Origin: an uncultured Nitrospirales bacterium
Lineage (GTDB): Bacteria; Nitrospirota; Nitrospiria; Nitrospirales; UBA8639
NCBI GenBank assembly: GCA_951812745.1
Contig: OX638327.1
Coordinates: forward strand, 248,001 to 312,000
Direction of reading: 5' to 3'
DNA length: 64,000 nt
In this document: positions 10,079 through 18,668 of the stretch, one piece after another
How the letters are laid out: each line of letters starts with the position of its first letter
Numbering within the stretch: the stretch's first letter is position 1
Translations under genes and position numbers: made by a program
The notes under the pieces: model-generated
Database searches by the model: none
The model's input: only the letters and a program-made list of their open reading frames with translations
What the model was told of the DNA's origin: nothing

Positions 10079-11179
10079 CTAGCGACCGCTTTCCATCCTC
10101 GCCAACAAGGCTTTGTGCCGCGGATGCCCAACGGTTTGCATGACCCGTGACGGATCGACGGGTTGGAATGGCGCGAGACGCTTCGTTTTCAAGGCCCGTA
10201 TGCGCGCCACGCTGGCCGTGAGCTTTTCCCACGAAAGCTCACCTCGTTCAAGGGCCTGCTCAATGGCTGCCACAGCCTCCTGTTGCCGTTCCTGCTGATG
10301 ACAGATTACGACCATGTCGGCACCGGCCTGTAAGGCTCGAACCGATGCGTTCCCGATGGACTGCTGGTCGAGAATGGCGCGCATTTCCATATCATCGGTG
10401 AGCGTGACGCCTTCAAAGCCCAACTGGTTCCGCAACAGATCGGTGAGAACGGGTCGGGACAGCGTCGCCGGACCTTCCGCATCGAGCGTGGGGTACCGCA
10501 CGTGCGCGGTCATGATTGTGGGCAGCCCGCGGCGGATCGCTTGCCGAAAGGGTTCGAGTTCCACGGCATCGAGTCGAGCGCGGTCGGCCTCCACCACGGG
10601 CAGGACGTGGTGTGAATCCGTCATGGTATCGCCATGCCCGGGAAAATGTTTGCCGCACGGGATGATACCATTGTCCTCAAACCCCTGCATCACGGCCAGG
10701 CCATACGTGCAGACCTGTTCGGGCTGTGTGCCATAGGCCCGATCCCCGATAATGGGATTGACCGGATTGCTGTTCACGTCCAGGATCGGCGCCAGGTTCA
10801 TGTTGATCCCGACCGCCCGCAGTTCTTGGGCCGTGACCTCCGCCGCCCCATAGGCCTCGTCCGGAGAGTGACACGCCGCAACTCTGGAAGCGGCGGGAAA
10901 CGTCGTAAAGCCTTGGGGTAAACGGGACACGCCACCACCCTCTTCATCGATGGCTATCAACAAGGGAGGGTTGGGCGCATGCTCCTGGAGGGCATTGGTC
11001 AGTCGCGCCACCTGTTCGGGATCCACGAGGTTACGCGAAAAGAGAATGACGCCACCCGGCCGACACTCTTGCAACCAATCGAGAACCGTCCGGGAGAGTT
11101 CCGTCCCCTGGAACCCCACCATCAAGAGTTGCCCGACGGTGTCTCGAATGGTCATGGAGAACTCGCTTATACCCGGCAT
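10079..11179 (-). CDS. nagZ: Beta-N-acetylhexosaminidase NagZ
   Basis: A 366-residue glycoside hydrolase family 3 enzyme that removes N-acetylglucosamine from muropeptides in the cytoplasm during cell-wall recycling. Seen are RPGGVILFSRNL, LLIAIDEEGGGVSRL and the signature KHFPGHGDTMTDSHHVLP, whose Asp/His pair is the flexible-loop acid/base, then LTDDMEMRAI carrying the nucleophile Asp. Length is normal for a single-domain NagZ. The predicted start ATG 11179 sits one base from the end of an insertion sequence; an internal ATG at 11155 (MTIRDTVGQLL) is an equally good start. Confidence 0.93.
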   Translation of the reverse strand: MPGISEFSMTIRDTVGQLLMVGFQGTELSRTVLDWLQECRPGGVILFSRNLVDPEQVARLTNALQEHAPNPPLLIAIDEEGGGVSRLPQGFTTFPAASRVAACHSPDEAYGAAEVTAQELRAVGINMNLAPILDVNSNPVNPIIGDRAYGTQPEQVCTYGLAVMQGFEDNGIIPCGKHFPGHGDTMTDSHHVLPVVEADRARLDAVELEPFRQAIRRGLPTIMTAHVRYPTLDAEGPATLSRPVLTDLLRNQLGFEGVTLTDDMEMRAILDQQSIGNASVRALQAGADMVVICHQQERQQEAVAAIEQALERGELSWEKLTASVARIRALKTKRLAPFQPVDPSRVMQTVGHPRHKALLARMESGR

Positions 11180-12248
11180 CTGTCATTCCTGTATGTGTTC
11201 AGTCATTCGTTGACAAGATTCATTCATGTGTTTCGGGGTTTGCCCCTGCAATGCCTGATGGGGGCGTACCTCATTGTAATAGAGGAGATATTGCTCCAAT
11301 TGGTCCCGGAACTCCGCCAGGGAGGCAAACGTGGTCCCGTCGATCAGGTCGTCGTTCAAGGTCCGCCAGAACCGTTCCACCTTCCCATTCGTCTGCGGCC
11401 GGTAGGGCCGGGCATACCGATGCTTAATCCCCAACTCCAACAGCATCCGTTCAAACGGGTGTGTGGCCGGCTGGGTCAGGGCCGCAAACTCCGACCCATT
11501 GTCCGTGAAGACCTCCGCAAATTGGAGCTGGTACCGCCGGTGGAGCAGATTGAAGCTCTTCAGGGCGCTGAACATCACCGTCAGATTCTTCAGATCGCTC
11601 ACTACCTCGGCCCAGGCCAGACGGATACAGGCGTCGATCACGCATGCCAGATAATAGCGCGTGGGATCGGTGGCAATCAGATCCTTACTCAAGTGATGGC
11701 AGTCCATCTGCCCTAATTCCCCGGCTTGCTGCTTCACGATGCGACGTTTCTCCTCGCGCAGCTTGGGCGTTAAGCGGTTCAGCCCGTATCACTGGGTAAT
11801 CCGATACACCGTACTCGGCGAGGGCGTCAGGTGCTTCAGTTTGGGGGCCAGAAGTTGGCAAATCTCATAGCGGTTGACGCCCTGGTGCCGGTGTTGCAAG
11901 ACTTGCTGCTCAATATACCCGTAGACCCGCCGACTTTTCCACTTCGGATCGCGCTTCTGCGGGACCAGGGCTTGATCCGCCCCGTTCTGGTGAAACCGGT
12001 GGTCATACTTGAAGAAGGTCTGCCGGTGGGTCTGATGAAACCGGTAGAAGTCGGCCACAAAGCGGAACGTGGGGTGCCGTTTCTGTTTGACCAACTCATA
12101 TTCCTGGATCAGGAATTTCCACTTCCGGACATAGTTACGGTAGAGGGTTGTATCCTCCGTATTCTTGCGCATGGCTTCGCCTCCAGATGATAGGGTGAGT
12201 CACCCTGCATGCTGTCAACGAATGACTGAACCTTTACAGGGATGACAG
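11180..12248 (-). mobile_element. IS481-like insertion sequence, about 1.07 kb
   Basis: Bounded by 36-bp imperfect terminal inverted repeats at 11180-11215 and 12213-12248 (32 of 36 positions match by hand alignment). Both begin CTGTCAT and end TTCAGTCATTCGTTGACA toward the interior. It contains one transposase gene broken by a single stop. The element is inserted exactly between the uvrA stop (8 bp away) and the nagZ start (1 bp away). No convincing target-site duplication was found. Confidence 0.85.
11183..12172 (-). pseudogene. IS481-like transposase interrupted by one in-frame TGA
   Basis: Two open segments, 12172-11789 and 11737-11183, are in the same frame and separated only by TGA at 11789-11791. 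Read through, they give one protein of about 329 residues. The N-terminal part has a DNA-binding helix-turn-helix (VNRYEICQLLAPKLKHLTPS) and the C-terminal part the rve/DDE catalytic core: MDCHHL for the first Asp, FTDNGSEF for the second, and RPYRPQTNGKVERFWRTLNDD with the Glu. The stop falls in ITQ-stop-YGLNRL and would be restored by a single C-to-T reversal (CGA Arg). Everything else looks intact, so inactivation is recent or the stop is a sequencing error. Confidence 0.85.
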
Positions 12249-12255
12249 TCCGGCG

Positions 12256-14763
12256 TCAGGCAACGTCGTCTTCGCGGAGCACCTGCGCGGTCCAGGACGT
12301 GCCGGAGCGGATCAATTCGGCAGGAGGGCCTGCCTCCACGATCTCCCCGCCGGCGTTCCCGCCGTCCGGGCCCAGGTCGAGAATCCAGTCCGCATTGCGG
12401 ATCACGTCCAGATTATGTTCGATCACGAGCACGGTATTCCCGTGTTCCACCAGCCGGTTCAACACGTCGAGCAGGCGTTGCACGTCCGCGAAATGCAACC
12501 CGGTCGTCGGCTCATCCAGCAGGTACAGGGTGCGGCCCGTGGCCCGCTTGGACAGCTCGCGACTGAGTTTCACGCGTTGCGCCTCGCCCCCGGACAACGT
12601 TGTGGCGGACTGCCCCAGCTTGACATAGTGCAGGCCCACGTCCGCCAGCGTCTGCAGTTTCCTCGCGATCGCCGGGATATGCGTGAAAAAGTCCTGCGCC
12701 TCCGCCACGGTCATGTCCAACACGTCCGCAATACTCTTGCCCTTGTGCCGCACGTCCAGCGTTTCCCGGTTATACCGCCGTCCCTTGCAGGCCTCGCAGG
12801 TCACGTACACGTCCGGCAAAAAATGCATCTCGATTTTCAGCAGCCCGCCGCCCTGGCACGCCTCGCACCGGCCACCCTTCACGTTGAAACTGTAGCGCCC
12901 TGGCCGGTACCCGCGCACGCGCGACTCGGGCAGCCCGGCGAACAGATCGCGGATGAACGTGAACACGCCCGTGTACGTGGCGGGATTGGAGCGCGGCGTG
13001 CGGCCGATGGGCGACTGATCGATATCGATCACTTTGTCCAGGGCCGCGGCCCCGTTCAGCGCCCGGCAGCCTTCCATCCGGGGTTTCTTGTGAAACAGCA
13101 CCGACGACAGCGACGGGAACAGGACCTCCAGCACCAGGGTACTCTTGCCGGACCCGGACACGCCGGTGACGCACGTCAACAGCCCCAGCGGGATCTTCGC
13201 GTTCACGGATTTCATATTATGCTTGTCGGCCCCGACCACGGTGAGAAACGTCTTGGGCCGGCGGGTGCGCGCGGGCAACGCCACGCGTTTCTCCCCGCGC
13301 AGGTACTGCCCGGTCAGCGAATCGGGATGGCGCATCACCTCCGCGGGCGAGCCCTGCGTCACGATCGACCCGCCGTACACGCCCGCGCCGGGTCCCATGT
13401 CCACGATATGATCCGCCACGCGCATGGTCGCGGCATCATGCTCCACCACCAGCACGGTATTGCCCAGGTCGCGGAGCCGCAGCAAGGTTTGCAGCAACCG
13501 GTGATTATCGCGCTGGTGCAGGCCGATACTCGGCTCATCCAGGATATACAACACTCCCACCAGCCCGGACCCGATTTGGGTCGCCAGCCGGATGCGCTGC
13601 CCTTCCCCGCCCGACAGGGTGGCGGCCGCCCGGTCCAGCGTCAGATAATCCAGCCCCACGTTCAGCAAAAACTCCAGCCGTTCCCGGATCTCCTTCAGGA
13701 TGCGCCGGCCGATCATGCGCTCCCGTTCGCTCAAGGCCAGGTCCCCGAAAAACGGCACGGCCTCGCGGATCGAAAGCTCTGTGACCTCGGCAATGGACTT
13801 TCCGCCGACCTTCACCGCCAGGCTCTCCGCCTTCAGCCGCGTCCCCCGGCAGACCGGGCAGCGGTAATGCTCGGAATACTCCTGGCCCTCCGGGCACGCG
13901 GACACCTCGTAGCCGATCCCGTCACACGCGGGACACGCGCCGTGCGGGCTGTTGAACGAAAACACCCGCGGCGCCAGTTCCGGATAACTCACGCCGCACG
14001 TGATACACGCCAACTGTTCGCTGTACAGCGTGACCTCGTCCGTCTCCGCCAGCACGCCCACCAGGCCTTGGGTCAACTTCAACGCCGTCTCCACCGAATC
14101 CGCCAATCGCCGTTGCAACGCCTCCTCGTCCTTCATCACCAGCCGGTCCACGACGATCTCGATCGTATGCTTCCGCTGCTTGTCCAGCGAGATCGTGTCG
14201 TCCAGCCCGACGATCGTGCCGTCGATACGCGCCCGCACGTAGCCCGCGCGCCGGGCGTCGGTCAACTCCTTGCGATACTCCCCTTTGCGGCCACGCACGA
14301 TGGGCGCCAGGATCTGAAACCGCGATCCCGCCGGCAGCGCGCCGATGGCATCCACCATCTGCTGCACCGTCTGCGCCGTAATCGGCTGCCCGCAATTCAC
14401 GCAAAACGGCCGGCCCACCCGGGCAAAGAGCAGGCGCAGGTAGTCGTAAATCTCCGTCACCGTGCCGACCGTGGACCGGGGGTTGTGGCTGGTGCTCTTC
14501 TGCTCGATGGAAATCGCGGGTGACAGGCCCTCGATGGAATCCACGTCGGGCTTGCCCATCTGTTCCAGGAACTGGCGCGCGTAGGCCGACAACGACTCCA
14601 CGTACCGTCGCTGCCCCTCGGCATAAATCGTGTCGAAACTCAACGACGACTTGCCCGAGCCGCTCAACCCCGTCACCACCACCAACCGGTCGCGCGGCAG
14701 CACCACGTCGAGGTTCTTCAGATTATGCTCGCGCGCGCCTTTGATATGAATGGACTGGCTCAT
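12256..14763 (-). CDS. uvrA: Excinuclease ABC subunit A, short form
   Basis: UvrA, the damage-sensing ATPase of nucleotide excision repair. Both ABC cassettes are present: Walker [10 protein letters not shown] near residue 35 and GVSGSGKST near 520; signatures [12 protein letters not shown] and [16 protein letters not shown]; Walker [12 protein letters not shown] and [11 protein letters not shown]. Zinc modules are seen as CITCG...ACPAC and CEACQGGG...CEACKG. The protein is 835 residues, about 105 short of E. coli UvrA. The gap is between [11 protein letters not shown] and [11 protein letters not shown], where the usual ~115-residue segment is reduced to under 20. The frame is continuous, so this is a real deletion or lineage variant and not a frameshift. 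Confidence 0.95.
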
Positions 14764-14775
14764 AGGTCCGTACGC

Positions 14776-14848
14776 GGCCTCTCCGTGGTCGTAGCCGCGC
14801 GATCCCGGGTCAGAGCCCGGGACATGCCTTCTCGCACCTCGAGAGGCC
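14776..14848. repeat. Direct repeat, family E, copy 1
   Basis: GTAGCCGCGCGATCCCGGGT followed by CAGAGCCCGGGACATGCC is repeated almost exactly at 14988-15060. The core GATCCCGGGTCAGAGCCCGGGA can fold. The second copy lies inside the tail of the decayed SLAM-like gene, so the repeat probably accompanied its truncation. Confidence 0.75.
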
Positions 14849-14951: not shown

Positions 14952-15655
14952 AAATGTATTTTCCAGACGCACCGCCTGCGGCCCGGCGGCCGCTCCGCAG
15001 GTGTAGCCGCGCGATCCCGGGTCAGAGCCCGGGACGTGCCTTCTCGCGCCCAGAGAGGCCGAGGAGAAGAAAGCGCCATCCCCGCTCGGAATTTACACTC
15101 GAACAGTTGTGCGTTGGACTTGCGCCGTTCGTTGGAGAACACGACCTGGGAACTGAAGCCGAACACCGTCACCGCGCGATTGAGCCGCGTGGCTGGTCCA
15201 ATCCGGTTCCGGTTCTCGCGGGCAGAGTTATCAGTCGTGAACGGAAACCACTGGCCCTCAAAATTCGTCCACCGGAACTCGCCGCCGGCGCCGATTGTAA
15301 AGCCCCAGGGCAACGCCACGTTCGTCCCCACCCGGGTCCAGCATCCGGCACGGCTCCAGGCAGGTAACTTGCCTCCTGCTGCATAGAGCCGATGCAACGC
15401 CGCAATGGCTTCATTCAGTCACGCCTCCGCGGCTTCGTCCGTCTCCATCCGGCCAGCCTCGCCGATGGCCGCCAAGCCAAGGAGAAACCGAATCTCAATG
15501 CTGTCCGGGCGATTCTGAGGCGCCAGGGGCCGCAAGATCTTCAGCGCCTTGAGAGGTTCCCGATGTTCTATCAGTGCACGGGCTTCGTTCACCCGAGGGA
15601 TTAAGGAGAGGTGAGCGTCGGCGAAAGCCGGAAGCGCAAGGAGAAGGGCGGGCAC
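14952..15655 (-). pseudogene. Decayed surface-lipoprotein assembly modifier (SLAM/DUF560-like) gene
   Basis: Two remnants of one outer-membrane gene. The 5' part (15655-15419) encodes a signal-like MPALLLALPAFADA, then an alpha-helical repeat segment (EARALIEHREPLKALKILRP, FLLGLAAIGEA). The 3' part (about 15397-15070) encodes barrel strands: LPWGFTIGAGGEFRWTNFEG, WFPFTTDNSARENRNRI, TVFGFSSQVVFSNERRKSNA. In SLAM proteins these are the N-terminal TPR-like and C-terminal 14-strand barrel regions; here most of the barrel is missing, a stop separates the halves, and the 3' end runs into a dispersed repeat. It lies downstream of a TbpB-like lipoprotein on the same strand, the typical SLAM-substrate pairing. 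Family call from pattern recognition. Confidence 0.65.
14988..15060. repeat. Direct repeat, family E, copy 2
   Basis: Second copy of the repeat at 14776-14848, 212 bp away in the same orientation, overlapping the 3' end of the SLAM-like pseudogene. Confidence 0.75.
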
Positions 15656-15696
15656 GGCACACGCCCGCCATCATCTCATGACAGGCATGAAAGAGA

Positions 15697-15726
15697 GAGG
15701 AAGGTGACCGGAAGGTCACCTTCCTC
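15697..15726. terminator. 13-bp perfect stem-loop between the TbpB-like gene and the SLAM-like remnant
   Basis: GAGGAAGGTGACC, loop GGAA, GGTCACCTTCCTC. It lies 54 bp beyond the lipoprotein stop and 42 bp before the SLAM-like start. It probably acts as a terminator or attenuator that lets the lipoprotein be expressed at higher level than the downstream gene. No U-tract is evident, so the mechanism is uncertain. Confidence 0.6.
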
Positions 15727-15779
15727 ACGGCTGAGGGGCCTTGATGGCACGCGGGGTGAGTAGGGGTGAGTAGGGGTAC

Positions 15780-17012
15780 TTAGGGGGTTGAAGATTGTTG
15801 GTACGTTCCGAAAGCCCCGATGAACGTCACGGTGGCATCCTCTTCTTGACTAGCATTTGAAGCACCAAACGTTCCGCCAACGCCCTCTGGATGCGAAGTC
15901 TCATCTTTCCCGAAAAACTCGCCACCCCATTTACCGGAGTACGTGTCGTCACCTATTATGCTAGTCCCACTGGTTTCACCCCAAAAAAACCCACCTGCGT
16001 TCTCGGTTATGGCGGCTTCTCCCAGCGTCAGTTCTGTGATGGGCAGCGGGGCGTCGGTGGTGCCATCCTTAAGCGTCAAGGGGCCGCCGGCACTGTTAAA
16101 CAAGGTAGGAGTATGCACTCTTCCGCGAATCGTTCCCATGCCATCGTCGCCGGCATCGAAGTTGGCCTCCAGATTCACCACTGCGCTGAAAAATCCGGTC
16201 GGTTGCCATGGAACGTTGTCTAAACGCTCATCCGTGGCCACAAAGCTACCGATCGCATCTCCTTGATAGGTTGCCCTCCCGGTGAGAGTCTGAATATTCA
16301 ATCCCCCAGCATCCTCGTCAAACGGATTGTTGGTATCTCCAAAAACGCCAAATACGAAAGGGATTTCCGGATTCTCTGGCACAAACCACCAGGTCCCCCC
16401 GGCCATATAGTCGGTATCGCCTGGATCTCCGACGAAGTGCGGCTGTAAGTCCGTCAAGGCGAGAACCGTCAGATCCCCTTGGGGAATCTGATCCGTTTGG
16501 TCTTCCGGCCCTATGGTTTTATGCAAAAGGGTGCCACGCCAGGTTCCAGCACCCCCTCCGGGGATGTGGGCTGGGTTCCCGCAGTGGGGGCATATCTGAG
16601 TGCCACTAGTAGTAAATACGGGAAAAGCTAGATCTTCATCAGGACCTAACTCCACTTCAGGATCCACTTCAGGATTTCCATCAGAGTCGCTATTATACGT
16701 TATATTAAAAACTGGTCGCAGTTTCCCATCCGGATAATCGTAGTTGTCTCTATACTCCGCGTCGGCAGTCACGACGTCTTTGGTTATATTATCGACGTCC
16801 GTATTTGAAGATTGTAGAATACTGCCTTGCTGGGGAATACTCTGGGCTGCTCGTGAAGCCGCGTCGGAGAGCGTGAGGTCCGACATGCCGCCGCCGCCAT
16901 CCATGACGCCGCCACCCATGAGGCCGCCGCCCCCCCCTCCTCCACCGCAGCCGGACAGGACCAAGACAACATACACCATTGCCCCCCTCCCTACCCATCT
17001 TTTCGCGCTCAT
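15780..17012 (-). CDS. TbpB-like surface lipoprotein (transferrin-binding-protein-like)
   Basis: A 410-residue lipoprotein. The N-terminus MSAKRWVGRGAMVYVVLVLSGC is a lipoprotein signal with lipobox LSGC, followed by a long glycine-rich tether (GGGGGGGG...GGGVMDGGGG). The C-terminal half has the repeated small-barrel motif of TbpB/factor-H-binding-type lipoproteins: LTGRATYQGDAIGSFVATDE and YSGKWGGEFFGKDETSHPEG with VGGTFGAS. A CPHCGNP pair in the middle may bind metal. ATG 17012 is preceded by AAGGAG. Ligand unknown; iron-protein binding should not be assumed. Expected to be displayed on the outer surface by a SLAM protein, whose gene just downstream is broken. Confidence 0.75.
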   Translation of the reverse strand: MSAKRWVGRGAMVYVVLVLSGCGGGGGGGGLMGGGVMDGGGGMSDLTLSDAASRAAQSIPQQGSILQSSNTDVDNITKDVVTADAEYRDNYDYPDGKLRPVFNITYNSDSDGNPEVDPEVELGPDEDLAFPVFTTSGTQICPHCGNPAHIPGGGAGTWRGTLLHKTIGPEDQTDQIPQGDLTVLALTDLQPHFVGDPGDTDYMAGGTWWFVPENPEIPFVFGVFGDTNNPFDEDAGGLNIQTLTGRATYQGDAIGSFVATDERLDNVPWQPTGFFSAVVNLEANFDAGDDGMGTIRGRVHTPTLFNSAGGPLTLKDGTTDAPLPITELTLGEAAITENAGGFFWGETSGTSIIGDDTYSGKWGGEFFGKDETSHPEGVGGTFGASNASQEEDATVTFIGAFGTYQQSSTP

Positions 17013-17108
17013 GACTGATGTCTCCTTGGATTTGAGGTTGTATCCTACACGGCAAGCCGTGCGTGAATATAATAAGCACACGTTATATTTAAGATAACAT
17101 ACTTTATA

Positions 17109-17675: not shown

Positions 17676-17855
17676 AGGTTTCTGAACTTATACAGGGTTT
17701 TCTGCAATGGGTTAACCCCAAGCGTCTCCTTTTCGGCAATGCAGAACGGTCCCCTCGGGCCGCGTCGCTGAGGAAGAAAGCCGCAGCGTGAGGGGTATCT
17801 GTCCGGCGACGTTGCTCGCCTTGACAAATTCGGCGGACCGGTGCTAACTGCTTGC

Positions 17856-18668
17856 ATGATGCCCTCCATGGAGGGGCGAACACGCAGATTCGCTCCTACA
17901 ACCGGTGCTTCACCAGGCCAGGCCGTGTCGCAATGGTCCGGTGCGTCGCGCGAATGGGCCGTGCAGCGCATGTTTACCGCGATTGCGACCCGGTACGATC
18001 TGAATAATTCCCTGCTCAGTTTCGGACTTCATCATCGCTGGAAGGCGCTGGCCGCGAGCCTGGTTCCCGTTCGGACGCGCGGGCGCGCCCTGGACCTGGG
18101 CGCGGGAACCGGGGATCTGGCCCTGCTGCTGGATGGTCGCATGGGGCCGTACGGCCGAGTGGCGGCCATGGATTTGAATTTCGCCATGCTGCGCGTGGGC
18201 GTGGCGAAGATTGCACGCCGCGGCCTGACTTCCCGCATCGCCTGTTTTCGCGGGAACGCGGAGCGGATCGCGTTTCTGGGCGGCACGTTCGACGCGGTGA
18301 CCACGGGGTTCTGTATCCGCAACGTGGGCGACCGGCCGCAGGCCTTTCGCGAGATTCATCGCGTACTGAAACCGGGTGGCCGCTTCGTGTGTCTGGAGTT
18401 TTCCCGGCCGGTTTCGGCCTGGCTCCGGCGCGTCTATGACTGGTATTCGTTTCGACTCCTGCCGGCCATCGGCACCTGGGTGGCCAAGGACCATACGGAC
18501 GTGTACCGCTACCTGCCTGAATCCATTCGCACGTTTCCCGATCAGGACCAGTTGGCCGCGATGCTTCGTGACGCCGGGTTCAGCCAAGTGGAGTATCGCA
18601 ATCTCAGCGGCGGGATCGTGGCCATTCACGTGGCGGTGAAGCCTGTCCCTTCGGCAGGCTCAGGATAG
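17856..18668 (+). CDS. ubiE: UbiE/MenG-type quinone methyltransferase
   Basis: A class I SAM-dependent methyltransferase of about 270 residues. The start of the fold VQRMFTAIATRYDLNNSLLSFG is diagnostic for UbiE/MenG/COQ5. The SAM-binding LDLGAGTGDLALLL, the GTFDAVTTGFCIRNVGDRPQAFREIHRVLKPGG segment and the FSRPVSAWLRRVYDWYSF region follow in order. It would C-methylate a menaquinone or ubiquinone precursor. Several candidate starts exist (GTG 17841, ATG 17856, 17859, 17868); none has a strong ribosome binding site. It is followed by a radical SAM gene after a 160-bp gap filled by repeats. Confidence 0.88.
   Translation: MMPSMEGRTRRFAPTTGASPGQAVSQWSGASREWAVQRMFTAIATRYDLNNSLLSFGLHHRWKALAASLVPVRTRGRALDLGAGTGDLALLLDGRMGPYGRVAAMDLNFAMLRVGVAKIARRGLTSRIACFRGNAERIAFLGGTFDAVTTGFCIRNVGDRPQAFREIHRVLKPGGRFVCLEFSRPVSAWLRRVYDWYSFRLLPAIGTWVAKDHTDVYRYLPESIRTFPDQDQLAAMLRDAGFSQVEYRNLSGGIVAIHVAVKPVPSAGSG

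Follow-up and report, generated by a model that had tools for sequence, protein, structure and literature searches.

In Neisseria, the exporter Slam1 serves the surface proteins TbpB, LbpB and fHbp, although the genes for TbpB and LbpB are not located with slam1; Slam2, by contrast, has HpuA as its one substrate (PMC5449769). The Slam1 system of Neisseria meningitidis, a type 11 secretion system, thus couples a TPR plus DUF560 exporter to several lipidated cargos, some of them encoded elsewhere, that combine a handle with an eight-stranded barrel. In hemophilin/HrpC, which pair with TXISS-1B exporters, the cargo is a single handle-plus-barrel lobe; nearly every cargo in the TXISS-1B subcluster is a soluble protein with an SPI signal (PMC8406197). 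Cluster 1 T11SS cargos join a variable N-terminus to a shared C-terminal barrel; the survey that describes them covers Proteobacteria only, and sponges are unmentioned in its text (PMC12282271). The published SLAM surveys consulted are all confined to Proteobacteria (PMC5449769, PMC8406197, PMC12282271).

Here we describe a locus of this kind in the genus bin75 of GTDB, Candidatus Nitrosymbion, whose members live mostly in marine sponges, show signs of being vertically transmitted and have a mean genome size of 2.36 Mb (PMC11812461), and whose contigs include Nitrospira sp. bin75 from Aplysina aerophoba (PMC5649159). The window, the whole stretch of 64,000 nucleotides that was analysed, belongs to a complete genome of 2,346,994 bp (~2.35 Mb) in a single contig. 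On its minus strand, positions 15780–17012 hold the intact open frame of a predicted surface lipoprotein of 410 residues (LP), which starts with an ATG at 17012, preceded at a distance of 8 nt by the ribosome-binding site AAGGAGA (17021–17027). The translation opens with an SPII signal, a basic, hydrophobic leader followed by the lipobox LSGC with Cys22 (16947–16958), and continues in a glycine-rich tether (residues 23–43; 16884–16946); lipobox and tether had both been named in the initial annotation and are confirmed here. LP would therefore share lipidation with the Slam1 cargos and, in having a lipobox, differs from TXISS-1B cargos. In contrast to the N. meningitidis system, the host is a Nitrospirota sponge symbiont and the linked exporter is dead.

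LP is the sole full copy in its own genome by protein search, where a profile of its C-terminal part matched with an E value of 4.5e-41, and its nearest relatives are ~40% identical; no relatives were found in a viral contigs database. When LP and the SLAM remnants described below were scanned directly with Pfam and NCBIfam, nothing usable was returned, and profiles based on relatives were needed to detect both. The Pfam family TbpB_B_D did not match LP itself; among its relatives it matched 4 of 8 in one set and 7 of 77 in another (best E 4e-5), and the N-terminal parts of the cargos contained no informative Pfam domain. The GC3 of LP is 0.55, against 0.70–0.86 for its neighbours; this was rejected as a sign of foreign origin, as orphan relatives share this deviation.

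To describe the fold, we used an AlphaFold2 model of residues 120–410 from an alignment of 77 rows, which supersedes a model of the whole protein from eight rows that was weak (pLDDT 46) yet already matched fHbp. The C-terminal model (pLDDT 78, pTM 0.79) comprises a four-stranded handle domain (residues ~159–227; 16332–16538) and an eight-stranded barrel of the TbpB/fHbp type (residues ~245–405; 15798–16280), so that the TbpB-type barrel proposed in the initial annotation withstands the structure prediction named there as a possible refutation. The best structural match is fHbp (Z 16.7, 170 aligned residues, rmsd 2.5), followed by NHBA (Z 13.8), Acinetobacter baumannii hemophilin (Z 13.4), the TbpB C-lobe (Z 12.9) and HpuA (Z 12.1), and sequence searches with LP gave no detectable match to any solved cargo. 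As modelled, the top matches are handle-plus-barrel surface proteins, the group that contains the known SLAM cargos, and LP is predicted to be nearer in fold to the single-lobe proteins fHbp, NHBA and hemophilin than to the two-lobed TbpB. The earlier description of LP as TbpB-like consequently holds for the barrel fold and not for the two-lobed architecture, as LP, like fHbp, has one lobe in its 410 residues. A neighbouring TbpA-type receptor is also absent from the window: the genome encodes eight TonB-dependent receptors, none of them in the window, so a TbpA-like partner of LP is not indicated. Just before the handle strands, Cys141 and Cys144 (in ICPHCGNP; window positions 16581–16592) form a pair that is nearly invariant across cargos (alignment A4) and perhaps represents a disulfide or a metal site.

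Directly downstream of LP, on the same strand, are the remains of a SLAM gene. When a profile built from 15 SLAMs of the genus was searched against the genome, exactly two pieces were obtained at the locus: a TPR (N-terminal) part at 15386–15622 (profile positions 84–162, E 1.6e-15) and a C-terminal barrel part at 15092–15367 (profile positions 408–500, E 2.8e-42). Chance matching is excluded, and the profile search bears out the initial annotation, which had described two same-strand SLAM/DUF560-like remnants downstream of the lipoprotein; the Pfam PF04575 model did not report these short pieces. Because both lie in one frame on the same strand, they represent one gene and not two. The span first assigned to the pair (14952–17012) does take in LP and the remnants, but recognizable SLAM sequence occupies only 15092–15622, and the beginning of the span includes a repeat at 14986–15060.

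Several lesions separate this remnant from a working exporter. In a tblastn comparison with the genome's own intact SLAM, the TPR part is 41% identical to residues 103–167 and the C-terminal part 62% identical to residues 421–510, and residues ~168–420 (~250 codons, ~760 bp) are missing at an internal-deletion junction at 15359–15397. One in-frame stop is located at 15419–15421 and a second lies just 5′ of the signal-peptide core. The last 12 residues are gone as well and are replaced by other sequence; they include the terminal β-strand, which in SLAM genes is conserved and ends in RWVRQF. Loss of the C-terminal strand normally blocks insertion into the outer membrane by BAM, so that lesion alone would probably be disabling. 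Most of the barrel is thus lost, and neither a complete TPR domain nor a 14-stranded barrel is left: on its sequence, the remnant is a pseudogene and not a working member of the SLAM/DUF560 family (PF04575).

Comparison with relatives places these lesions in a genomic context. The island is bounded on the left by uvrA (12256–14763, minus strand), with homologues 85–95% identical in 12 of 13 genus genomes, and on the right by a ubiE-like methyltransferase gene (17841–18668, plus strand), with homologues 78–90% identical in 11 of 13. Genome G010 carries, on a single contig, uvrA (−), a hypothetical gene (+), ruvB (+), an intact SLAM gene (−), an LP homologue (−) and ubiE (+), and the order uvrA–hypothetical gene–ruvB–SLAM recurs in G001, G004 and G013. 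In G002, 4.8 kb separate uvrA–hypothetical gene–ruvB from ubiE, and neither SLAM nor cargo is present. In the genome of the window, by contrast, uvrA abuts repeats and the SLAM remnant, and the hypothetical gene and ruvB are found ~970 kb away, at ~1.238 Mb, beside a second cassette. Judged by gene order across these genomes, the uvrA–ubiE interval is an old SLAM/cargo site of the genus, and the remnant ends, at its 3′ side, where a rearrangement junction lies. We infer that a rearrangement truncated the SLAM gene; the order and cause of its lesions are likewise a reconstruction. The comparison of relatives that the initial annotation had called for thus showed that, in G010, this site holds an intact SLAM together with an LP homologue.

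The uvrA/SLAM-remnant junction is marked by an interspersed repeat of 75 nt, whose core is CGGGTCAGAGCCCGGGAC, present in two copies in the window and 14 matches in the genome. One copy (14986–15060, plus strand) is near the 3′ truncation, lying ~30 nt past the end of SLAM-remnant homology; the other (14774–14848, plus strand; 88% identical) is between uvrA and the remnant. Another match is located ~2.7 kb from the second, intact SLAM. On the far side of uvrA, a transposase-like (integrase-core) gene at 11183–12172 is broken into two open reading frames in different frames and adjoins a glycoside hydrolase gene (10079–11179).

The correspondence with G010 is one of position. In the SLAM tree, the remnant groups with the other SLAMs of the genus to the exclusion of the G010 SLAM, so sequence orthology between the two is not supported; the branch of the remnant is long, at 0.96 compared with a median of 0.24, with 32% of its columns filled. 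In G010 it is the LP homologue (L054:7436-8700) that is frameshifted, between the lipobox part and the barrel, while the SLAM is intact, so that G010 is the mirror image of the window unless this frameshift is a sequencing error. The broken SLAM in the window might likewise be an artefact of assembly that hides an intact gene. We regard this as highly improbable: ~760 bp missing internally, a 3′ end missing close to a repeat and in-frame stops do not resemble the homopolymer errors that are usual, the two pieces share one frame, and SLAM fragments occur in other genomes too.

A genome-wide search for DUF560, another check proposed at the outset, found exactly one intact SLAM, at ~1,232,496–1,234,064, ~970 kb from LP. 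It encodes 522 residues, scores 83.7 bits with PF04575 against a cut-off of 22 and lies directly downstream of its own lipoprotein cargo of 680 residues, which has the same C-terminal barrel. In this second cargo (L002:8287-10329), about ten near-identical 16-residue repeats of the RPDTDLTLAEITALMG type stand between the lipobox and the barrel and probably form a helical stalk. The exporter that the initial annotation considered lost is therefore missing locally, at LP, and not from the genome; of the fates then listed for LP (stranded inside, served by another SLAM or decaying itself), the presence of an intact second SLAM favours the other SLAM.

We consider it probable that LP is an intact SLAM cargo whose linked SLAM has decayed and which is exported by the remaining SLAM at 1.232 Mb. 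LP has a lipobox, a predicted handle and barrel, and linkage to a SLAM gene, as expected of a SLAM cargo. Most likely, LP is made, lipidated, carried by Lol to the outer membrane and flipped there by the one remaining SLAM, for which the Slam1-dependent TbpB and LbpB of Neisseria, with genes distant from slam1, are the published precedent (PMC5449769); it would have to be expressed and accepted by that SLAM, and would then face the sponge host. A protein that faces the periplasm, or is exported otherwise and was never SLAM-dependent, seems improbable. Orphan cargo loci with no nearby SLAM trace are common in the genus, which speaks for that explanation, but the barrel domain of LP is common to cargos directly upstream of SLAM genes: 61 of 85 full SLAMs across all loci (those with at least 1 kb of upstream sequence, some loci having been fetched twice) are preceded on the same strand by a barrel cargo whose end lies no more than 1.5 kb upstream. 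Moreover, the SLAM remnant adjoins LP, and an intact SLAM adjoins its positional homologue. The cargos of these related loci vary widely in length and N-terminus, an architecture like that of Cluster 1 T11SS cargos.

By profile search, 12 of 14 genus genomes, including the one studied here, contain barrel cargos, whereas all 46 genomes searched from elsewhere in the order lack them. Cargo matches outnumber intact SLAMs 6 to 2 in G001 and G005, 5 to 1 in G003, 10 to 2 in G011, 9 to 1 in G012 and 6 to 1 in G013, compared with 2 to 1 in the genome of the window and 1 to 1 in G010. This excess implies that orphan cargos are common in the genus. The sole SLAM of G012 and that of G013 have no cargo upstream, although several kilobases are available, so that any export of cargos in these two genomes must occur in trans. 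In G009, five cargo matches but not a single SLAM were detected; the assembly is 99% complete in 160 contigs, and either an assembly gap or loss of the exporter might be responsible. G007 has one cargo, broken by stops, and no SLAM, and neither cargo nor SLAM was found in G002 and G008.

These counts also bear on whether LP is instead stranded at the outer membrane, facing the periplasm, and heading for loss, which we regard as unlikely but worth weighing. Its linked SLAM is dead, its genome holds two cargos where most SLAM-bearing relatives hold 5 to 10, which suggests shrinkage, and G007, G002 and G008 indicate that genomes can lack or lose the system entirely. The five cargos of G009 suggest that cargo genes may outlive their SLAM, with the reservation that this genome is in 160 contigs, and the Slam2 precedent implies that the SLAM still present could accept no cargo but its own; both points weigh against export in trans. 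However, LP keeps 410 open codons, its ribosome-binding site, its lipobox and all eight predicted strands, the marks of decay (stops, deletions and a long branch) sit in the SLAM remnant instead, and an intact SLAM is present in the genome. Export in trans by that SLAM thus appears to be the best reading.

Beyond the genus, we scanned 84,980 species with the SLAM profile of the genus and confirmed 154 loci. Among the best 80 of these, nearly all are sponge-associated records, from several phyla outside Proteobacteria, a habitat bias that is partly built in because the query came from a sponge symbiont. They include Aplysina bins (PMC5649159) and the jk18x bins of Ircinia (PMC9531527). Candidatus Synechococcus spongiarum is also among the best loci. 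Further loci are found in the p16x, RHO/APA/CAR/COS, SB0662 and CO36 bins, which we take to be of sponge origin. Some of these codes agree with sponges named in a survey of reef demosponges (PMC8163846). The SLAM tree, from which seven wrong-frame open reading frames that had produced a false deep clade were excluded (L087, L094, L119, L124, L127, L135 and L137), contains supported clades of Nitrospirota, Nitrospinota, Cyanobacteria and Bryobacterales. Chloroflexota rows and one from Acidobacteriota (L105, L112, L114 and L119) are nested in Pseudomonadota, mostly on short contigs; they may be binning errors and were not counted.

Same-strand SLAM fragments beside an intact SLAM were observed in other sponge-associated genomes (L107:6359-6847, L112:6504-6722, L115:7050-7505, L064:7473-7676, L063:7885-8004, L093:5227-5478, L110:6048-6260 and L128:545-1195). 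All but that of L128, which is upstream, lie downstream of the intact SLAM, and they represent C-terminal or distal barrel parts, as if newer cassettes had displaced older ones.

A known SLAM/cargo system is thus found in a new setting, a genus of nitrite-oxidising sponge symbionts. None of the papers searched combined 'sponge' and 'DUF560', and Slam-type export has so far been described and surveyed as proteobacterial and largely pathogen-associated. Tentatively, SLAM and lipoproteins of the fHbp/TbpB fold could be a trait shared by transfer across sponge-symbiont phyla (Nitrospirota, Nitrospinota, several proteobacterial classes, Acidobacteriota, Binatota and Cyanobacteria), in which one hub SLAM would display many unlinked cargos toward the host and the decay of cassettes would yield orphan cargos. 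With its linked exporter lost, LP offers a natural test of the ability of a single SLAM to export cargos encoded elsewhere. Should the pattern across sponges prove true, it would provide candidate surface proteins for the recognition of symbionts by the sponge host, or for shielding from it.
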